Assembly (NCBI GenBank): GCA_003228195.2
Contig: QGNO01000001.1
Span: forward strand, 149,550 to 213,549
DNA: 64,000 bases
Reading direction: 5' to 3'
Source: Chloroflexota bacterium
GTDB taxonomy: Bacteria > Chloroflexota > Dehalococcoidia > Lucifugimonadales > QGNO01
The notes below the pieces were generated by a model, which saw only the letters and a program-made list of their open reading frames with translations, did no database searches and was not told the DNA's origin. Positions 23,237 through 24,152 of the stretch are shown here, piece after piece (the stretch's first letter is position 1; the number at the start of each line of letters is the position of its first letter). The translations under genes and the position numbers were made by a program.

Positions 23237-23617
23237 TCAGCCTTTTGTACGATAGATTTCTACTGATATACCTTCTGATACCAATCCGTCTATCGGCGGG
23301 GCAGTTTTTTTAACTCTTGCACGGGCTGTTGCTACTGGAAATAAGGTGAGCACTGTCTTTGTTATAGCCTCGGCCATCGACTCTATTAAGTTAAAGGTTC
23401 GATTTTCAACGATATTCTTAACTACTAGGTATAAATCCTCGTAGTTGATTGTGTCTCCAAGACTATCAGAATGCGCTGGCGCACTAAGATCAAGGGCAAC
23501 CTCGAGGTCTACGATGAATTGTTGTTTTACGGAGCGTTCATCTGAATGTACCCCATGGAACCCGTAGAGCGAAAGTTGCTCTAGCCTAATCGTATCTTGA
23601 TTTCCATGCTCTGCCAT
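23237..23617 (-). CDS. folB: Dihydroneopterin aldolase
   Basis: Cleaves 7,8-dihydroneopterin to hydroxymethyl-dihydropterin and glycolaldehyde in folate synthesis. The 126 residues match the family length. RLEQLSLYGFHGVHSDERSVKQ carries the substrate-binding block, DTINYEDLYLVVKNIVE holds the central Tyr/Glu region, and FNLIESMAEAI and ARVRVKKTAPPID are typical. No Shine-Dalgarno is seen; an extended -10 ends nine bases before ATG 23617. The thioredoxin-like lipoprotein gene follows immediately. Confidence 0.94.
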   Translation of the reverse strand: MAEHGNQDTIRLEQLSLYGFHGVHSDERSVKQQFIVDLEVALDLSAPAHSDSLGDTINYEDLYLVVKNIVENRTFNLIESMAEAITKTVLTLFPVATARARVKKTAPPIDGLVSEGISVEIYRTKG

Positions 23618-23659: not shown

Positions 23660-23704
23660 GAATACAGAAGAGGGCCCGGAAATTCCGGGCCCTCTTCTGT
23701 ATTC
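23660..23704 (-). repeat. Perfect 21-bp inverted repeat (strong hairpin) after the 18-codon ORF
   Basis: Arms 23660-23680 and 23684-23704 are exactly complementary over 21 bp with a 3-base loop; the core contains GAGGGCCCGGA. There is no T-run on either side, so it is not a textbook intrinsic terminator, but it could stop or process transcripts from either strand. The minus-strand first arm begins inside the TGA stop codon of the tiny ORF, so a terminating ribosome would cover it. Confidence 0.85.
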
Positions 23705-23759
23705 AGGCTGGACTAATCTCCAGATTGACCTGTGCTAACCTACGTCTATAACTACTCAT
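23703..23759 (-). CDS. Candidate 18-residue peptide gene or leader peptide
   Basis: The peptide reads MSSYRRRLAQVNLEISPA. Its ATG is preceded by AAGGAGGTGAT (23774-23764), an exact complement of the 16S rRNA tail, with five bases between. Upstream is a promoter with an 18-base spacer (TGGACA at 23837-23832, TATACT at 23813-23808), giving a leader of about 40 bases. Immediately downstream is the 21-bp hairpin. The three consecutive arginine codons are AGA CGT AGG. It is either a free-standing micro-protein or a leader peptide whose translation controls the hairpin. I recognise no family. Confidence 0.55.
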   Translation of the reverse strand: MSSYRRRLAQVNLEISPA

Positions 23760-23807
23760 AGGCATCACCTCCTTGTGTTTCAAAAGAACACTGCTGAGAT
23801 GGCGCCT

Positions 23808-23837
23808 AGTATATCGAAGCATTTTGTGATTTGTCCA
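23808..23837 (-). promoter_or_regulatory. Promoter of the 18-codon ORF
   Basis: Minus-strand TGGACA (23837-23832) and TATACT (23813-23808) are 18 bases apart, with start predicted near 23801. The -35 of the divergent 5S promoter begins only 21 bases away, so the two polymerases would compete or share a control region. Confidence 0.5.
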
Positions 23838-23895: not shown

Positions 23896-24017
23896 CTCCC
23901 TGGTGATTAGAGCGGGGTGGCACCACCCGTTCCCATCCCGAACACGGAAGTGAAACGCCCTAGCGCCGACGATACTTTGCTCGCAAGGGCATGGGAAAAT
24001 AAGCCATCGCCAGGGGG
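23896..24017 (+). rRNA. rrf: 5S ribosomal RNA
   Basis: About 120 bases with a closed terminal helix (CTCCCTGGTGA pairing with TCGCCAGGGGG) and the conserved interior ACCCGTTCCCATCCCGAACA. GAAGTGAAACGCCCTAGCGCCGA and the loop with CGATACTTTGC are also present. Ends are set by the helix and may be off by one or two bases. No 16S or 23S gene lies within the window on either side, and the gene has its own promoter and terminator. Confidence 0.95.
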
Positions 24018-24026: not shown

Positions 24027-24152
24027 GGATTGCCATTATATGGTGGAGTACGTATTTGTTAATAACCTCACTAATTACTTTCTTTGAACAACTCCATCTG
24101 GTAAATTAAAGATGTACCTAATTATGAATACGGTTGAGCGTAGCTGATCTTG

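Follow-up and report, generated by a model that had tools for sequence, protein, structure and literature searches.

Sequence anatomy of a candidate 18-codon gene between a 5S rRNA gene and folB in an uncultured bacterium

Known short genes and the setting of the locus

Stand-alone bacterial small-protein genes, which have fewer than 50 codons and their own promoter and terminator, resemble the candidate tiny gene described here in the order of their parts, in length and in a good Shine-Dalgarno site; the tiny gene differs from them in being known from its sequence alone and in lacking conservation in the genomes searched. Leader peptides and attenuators, such as TnaC and trpL, offer a second comparison. 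The rbf uORF of S. aureus is described in PMC13009471 as an arginine-sensing leader peptide. As in all three, the tiny gene has a very short open reading frame (ORF) that leads into a hairpin and shares its strand with the next gene. Unlike in those systems, the next gene (folB) has a start-proximal promoter and no Shine-Dalgarno site, and a competing stem is missing. Bidirectional intrinsic terminators with A-rich and T-rich stem bases form a third group, to which the hairpin is related by a GC core flanked by AGAAGA and TCTTCT; it departs from them in that its T-rich tail is broken by C and G and its first base lies in a stop codon.

The tiny gene lies on the minus strand of an uncultured bacterium, in the gap between a 5S rRNA gene and folB, and its whole arrangement takes up about 180 bp of the 64-kb window, that is, of the entire stretch of DNA analysed. 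Next downstream on the same strand is folB, which encodes dihydroneopterin aldolase (23237-23617; Pfam FolB, E=3.4e-31). Just upstream and divergent is a stand-alone 5S rRNA gene on the plus strand (23899-24015; Rfam RF00001, 89 bits), absent from an earlier note on this DNA.

The most likely reading, to which we attach about an even chance, is that of an independent minus-strand unit between 5S and folB that would produce a lineage-restricted small mRNA for an 18-residue peptide. Transcription would start near 23801 and give a transcript of about 145 nt, with a leader of about 45 nt followed by an 18-codon ORF that carries an unusually strong Shine-Dalgarno site. The ORF would be translated into a mildly basic, lineage-restricted peptide of 18 residues, and transcription would end at a 21-bp hairpin that starts in the stop codon. 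The earlier note had proposed a micro-protein gene at this site: the anatomy is indeed best read as a complete tiny gene, whereas homologue searches and codon usage lent the proposal nothing. If expressed, the roughly 180 bp would make a compact example of a minimal protein gene from an uncultured lineage, of the sort that annotation pipelines omit.

Promoter-like element, Shine-Dalgarno site and reading frame

A promoter-like element, TGGACA-18-TATACT, was read directly on the minus strand (23808-23837) and was also found by a consensus scan, matching 10 of 12 positions. TGGACA occupies 23837-23832 and TATACT 23813-23808, with the 18-nt spacer that the earlier note had reported. The same scan found four sites of this grade in 1,061 bp, where 1.8 were expected; the match is thus ordinary and, as evidence alone, weak.

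The Shine-Dalgarno site, AAGGAGGTGAT (approximately 23764-23774, minus strand), has 11 bases complementary to the 16S 3' end. No 16S rRNA gene was found in the 28 contigs of the bacterium's own assembly, which is rated 90% complete. The tail GGCTGGATCACCTCCTT is present in 8 of 9 relatives searched, so that AAGGAGGTGAT is a true 11-base complement of the expected 16S tail, and the 11-base match given by the earlier note holds. Its five-base spacer has to be corrected: four bases, GCCT, separate AAGGAGGTGAT from the ATG. Across 341 ORFs of at least 150 codons in the genome, complementarity to the 16S tail reaches 9 bases at most, compared with 11 at the tiny ORF. This genome does use Shine-Dalgarno sites, as Shine-Dalgarno pentamers peak 4-9 nt before the ATG in 393 of its ATG-initiated ORFs. 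The tiny ORF falls in this genome-typical range, with its ATG 8 nt after GGAGG, as expected of a small-protein gene with a ribosome-binding site. Taken by itself, the 10-mer AAGGAGGTGA is present at four places in the genome, close to the chance expectation, and the other copies lie mostly away from starts; the evidential force therefore lies only in the combination of parts.

The ORF itself (23703-23759, minus strand) consists of an ATG at about 23759-23760, depending on the count, 18 codons (MSSYRRRLAQVNLEISPA) and TGA, all as the earlier note had described and all visible on direct reading. It belongs to an in-frame open stretch of 48 codons that, on the 5' side of the ATG, runs into the promoter; a second ATG two codons upstream is too near the Shine-Dalgarno site. 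Codon usage gave no coding signal, with 78% of shuffled ORFs scoring as well, although 18 codons give such a comparison little power. The coding case is accordingly carried solely by the Shine-Dalgarno/ATG/stop arrangement.

A promoter and a terminator without a conserved ORF might instead mark a small RNA some 145 nt long, either non-coding or with a dual function; it would have a stem-loop at its 5' end and a terminator at its 3' end, and its purine-rich GGAGGUGAU stretch would pair with targets. A stem-loop that includes the Shine-Dalgarno site can be folded from the 5' region, and the leader may partly pair with that site. The fold is no better than that of shuffled sequences (z -1.2 at best), and neither an Rfam match nor a homologue was found; we regard a small RNA of this kind as quite unlikely. 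The same comparison with shuffles led us to reject a structured leader in which the Shine-Dalgarno site would be masked.

We searched for relatives of the tiny gene at several levels. By blastn against 250 genomes of the order, the whole region was found in its own genome only; elsewhere, the best matches (E 6e-5 and weaker) were confined to the hairpin, and all others were no stronger than chance. Against 393 genomes of the class, the region returned nothing else at E 0.001, and the peptide found only itself at E<=0.1. Weaker peptide matches in four genomes of the order (E 0.15-2.7) lay inside longer frames or in DNA coding in another frame and were set aside as chance. Phages, plasmids, viral contigs and PDB sequences held no match to the peptide or the RNA. 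In the Rfam search, no known RNA family came up apart from 5S rRNA; the remaining hairpin matches fell below the threshold. The nearest genomes compared belong to the same order and to other families, and a query of 18 residues is a weak one; with genomes no closer than the order and so short a feature, the absence of a homologue says little.

The lack of conservation, together with strong initiation signals on a tiny ORF, would also be accounted for by a remnant, in which the 5' end of a former gene (promoter, Shine-Dalgarno site and first codons) was fused by deletion to its terminator. Similar sequence was found in no frame of the order or class, and the rest of such a gene leaves no trace in the gap; we consider this origin extremely unlikely.

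The hairpin and the combination of parts

The hairpin extends from 23704 to 23660 on the minus strand. All 21 of its 21 positions are paired around a 3-nt loop, and the stem opens with the G of TGA; direct reading and a hairpin search agree on this with the earlier note. As DNA it is a 45-bp palindrome (22+1+22) centred on a single A. No other perfect hairpin in the 64-kb window comes close to it in length, the next having 11 bp, and it is single-copy in the genome, which led us to reject a mobile or repeated palindrome. The stem holds the GC core GGGCCCGGA, flanked by AGAAGA and TCTTCT, and the T-rich tail TCTTCTGTATT likewise lies within the paired bases. It has the stable, GC-rich hairpin of an intrinsic terminator. 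No T-run follows the full 21-bp stem; TCTTCTGTATT, which comes after the GC core, sits inside the stem and is interrupted by C and G. The consensus scan that picked up the promoter-like element did not list it.

Perfect hairpins of 16-24 bp occur elsewhere in the sampled genome. Several, at five loci including L073, lie 18-40 nt past gene ends with their A-rich and T-rich parts paired; an example is the TAAAAAGAAGAGGGACCCC...GGAGTCCCTCTTCTTTTTA hairpin, 21 nt past a 944-codon frame. In other genomes of the order, hairpins of similar sequence lie 17-63 nt past gene ends at four loci. Long hairpins past gene ends, here and in relatives, make that of the tiny gene terminator-like, and long perfect hairpins with a T-rich part in the stem appear to be a type of terminator that this genome uses commonly. 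The simplest reading of the hairpin is a bidirectional terminator, formed by the GC core GGGCCCGGA and the tail TCTTCTGTATT. Perfect hairpins of 18-24 bp in the same genome include L073:10940-10994, which lies 40 nt past a 619-codon gene, and L142:2970-3018, L151:5204-5242 and L153:1463-1501, which have no clear gene end nearby. Length alone is therefore no proof of a terminator. On the minus strand, no convincing gene was found from the hairpin to 25.4 kb, so that the tiny unit is what the hairpin would terminate on that strand.

We then estimated how often such parts would come together by chance. Random genome positions served as stand-ins for the hairpin, and at each we looked for an ORF of 8-40 codons ending at most 6 nt away and counted its match to the 16S tail, in a sample of 0.85 Mb taken in stretches. 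The fractions of random positions with a match of at least 6, 7, 8, 9 and 10 bases were 3.7e-3, 6.6e-4, 1.1e-4, 4e-5 and 1.3e-5, respectively. The sample holds 25 hairpins of at least 12 bp, that is, 50 sides. The sample should hence contain about 6e-4 hairpins with an ORF and a match of at least 10; one was observed, with a match of 11, and at every other hairpin in the 0.85 Mb any mini-ORF matches the tail over at most 5 bases. The test was designed after the case had been seen, and its figure is to be read as post hoc. With about 1e-5 per site for an ORF within 6 nt and a match of at least 10, the earlier note's judgement that chance assembly is unlikely stands: the combination of parts is non-random, the evidence lying in the combination only and judged post hoc. 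These results point to a real, better-than-chance arrangement of ordinary parts and make the site a candidate tiny gene.

The same figures bear on whether the hairpin might serve only as a bidirectional terminator that insulates 5S and folB from stray transcription, with the ORF and Shine-Dalgarno site as coincidences. The palindromic hairpin is terminator-like on both strands, AAGGAGGTGA occurs at about its chance number, and neither a coding signal nor conservation in the genomes searched was found, all of which fits. Such a coincidence is expected only about 6e-4 times in the sample (post hoc) and recurs, even at a match above 5, at no other sampled hairpin. We rate this explanation as somewhat unlikely.

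folB and the 5S rRNA neighbourhood

The earlier note had placed folB downstream with a -10 of its own, and both points are borne out: besides its Pfam assignment, folB has an extended -10, TGTTATAAT, that ends 9 nt before the ATG. No Shine-Dalgarno site precedes this ATG. From the position of TGTTATAAT and the missing Shine-Dalgarno site, the folB mRNA would, as expected, be leaderless or nearly so. The alternative raised in the earlier note, a translation-sensing leader, is not supported: these features speak against it, as a read-through mRNA would offer folB no Shine-Dalgarno site; folB does not appear to depend on read-through from the leader promoter. Nor did the MFE or centroid fold contain a competing stem, as mutually exclusive structures would demand. 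A ribosome on a stop codon reaches about 12-13 nt beyond its first base. At the TGA it would cover the lower half of the stem only, and the 9-10 bp GGGCCCGGA core with the T-rich tail would probably still terminate; with the core free, translation to the stop is not expected to block the hairpin. A hairpin that abuts a stop codon is by itself no ground for calling a site a regulatory leader.

A more specific version is an attenuator for folB that senses, for example, arginine through the Arg-Arg-Arg run of the peptide. The ORF ends 86 nt upstream of folB on the same strand, a run of three consecutive Arg codons is expected 0.002 times per 18-residue peptide (judged post hoc), and arginine sensing by a leader peptide is described for S. 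aureus (PMC13009471). The three codons, AGA, CGT and AGG, make up 0.27, 0.15 and 0.19 of the genome's Arg codons and are not rare, there is no evident tie between folate synthesis and arginine, and the extended -10 of folB is placed for a leaderless mRNA. Given also a fold without an antiterminator stem, we think such an attenuator very unlikely.

On the other side of the tiny gene, the 5S rRNA gene is followed on the plus strand by a gene for an S1-domain protein and then a ClpC-type gene, and in many relatives 5S likewise lies beside an S1-type or ClpC gene. When contigs were searched with the S1 protein as query, the best relative was 49% identical (Dehalococcoidia ALOHA_A2.5_17); with folB as query, no match was found. 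The tiny-gene mRNA would have one of the genome's strongest Shine-Dalgarno sites, and one could imagine that a micro-protein specific to the lineage, or a small RNA that binds ribosomes, is encoded beside the 5S and S1 genes and acts in ribosome supply or translation, an idea we hold to be highly improbable.

A collapsed rRNA operon or rRNA relic was also considered and rejected. On the plus strand, ATCACCTCCTT is identical to the end of 16S on its 3' side, whereas the preceding bases (GGCTGG) differ from 16S, and many relatives have 5S in the same kind of position, next to the gene for an S1-type protein or ClpC. A T run lies just 3' of the 5S rRNA gene. Just beyond the 5S 3' end is a strong promoter-like TTAACA-16-TATAAT on the minus strand (24035-24062), which matches the consensus at 11 of 12 positions and is aimed into the 5S antisense strand and then toward the tiny ORF.
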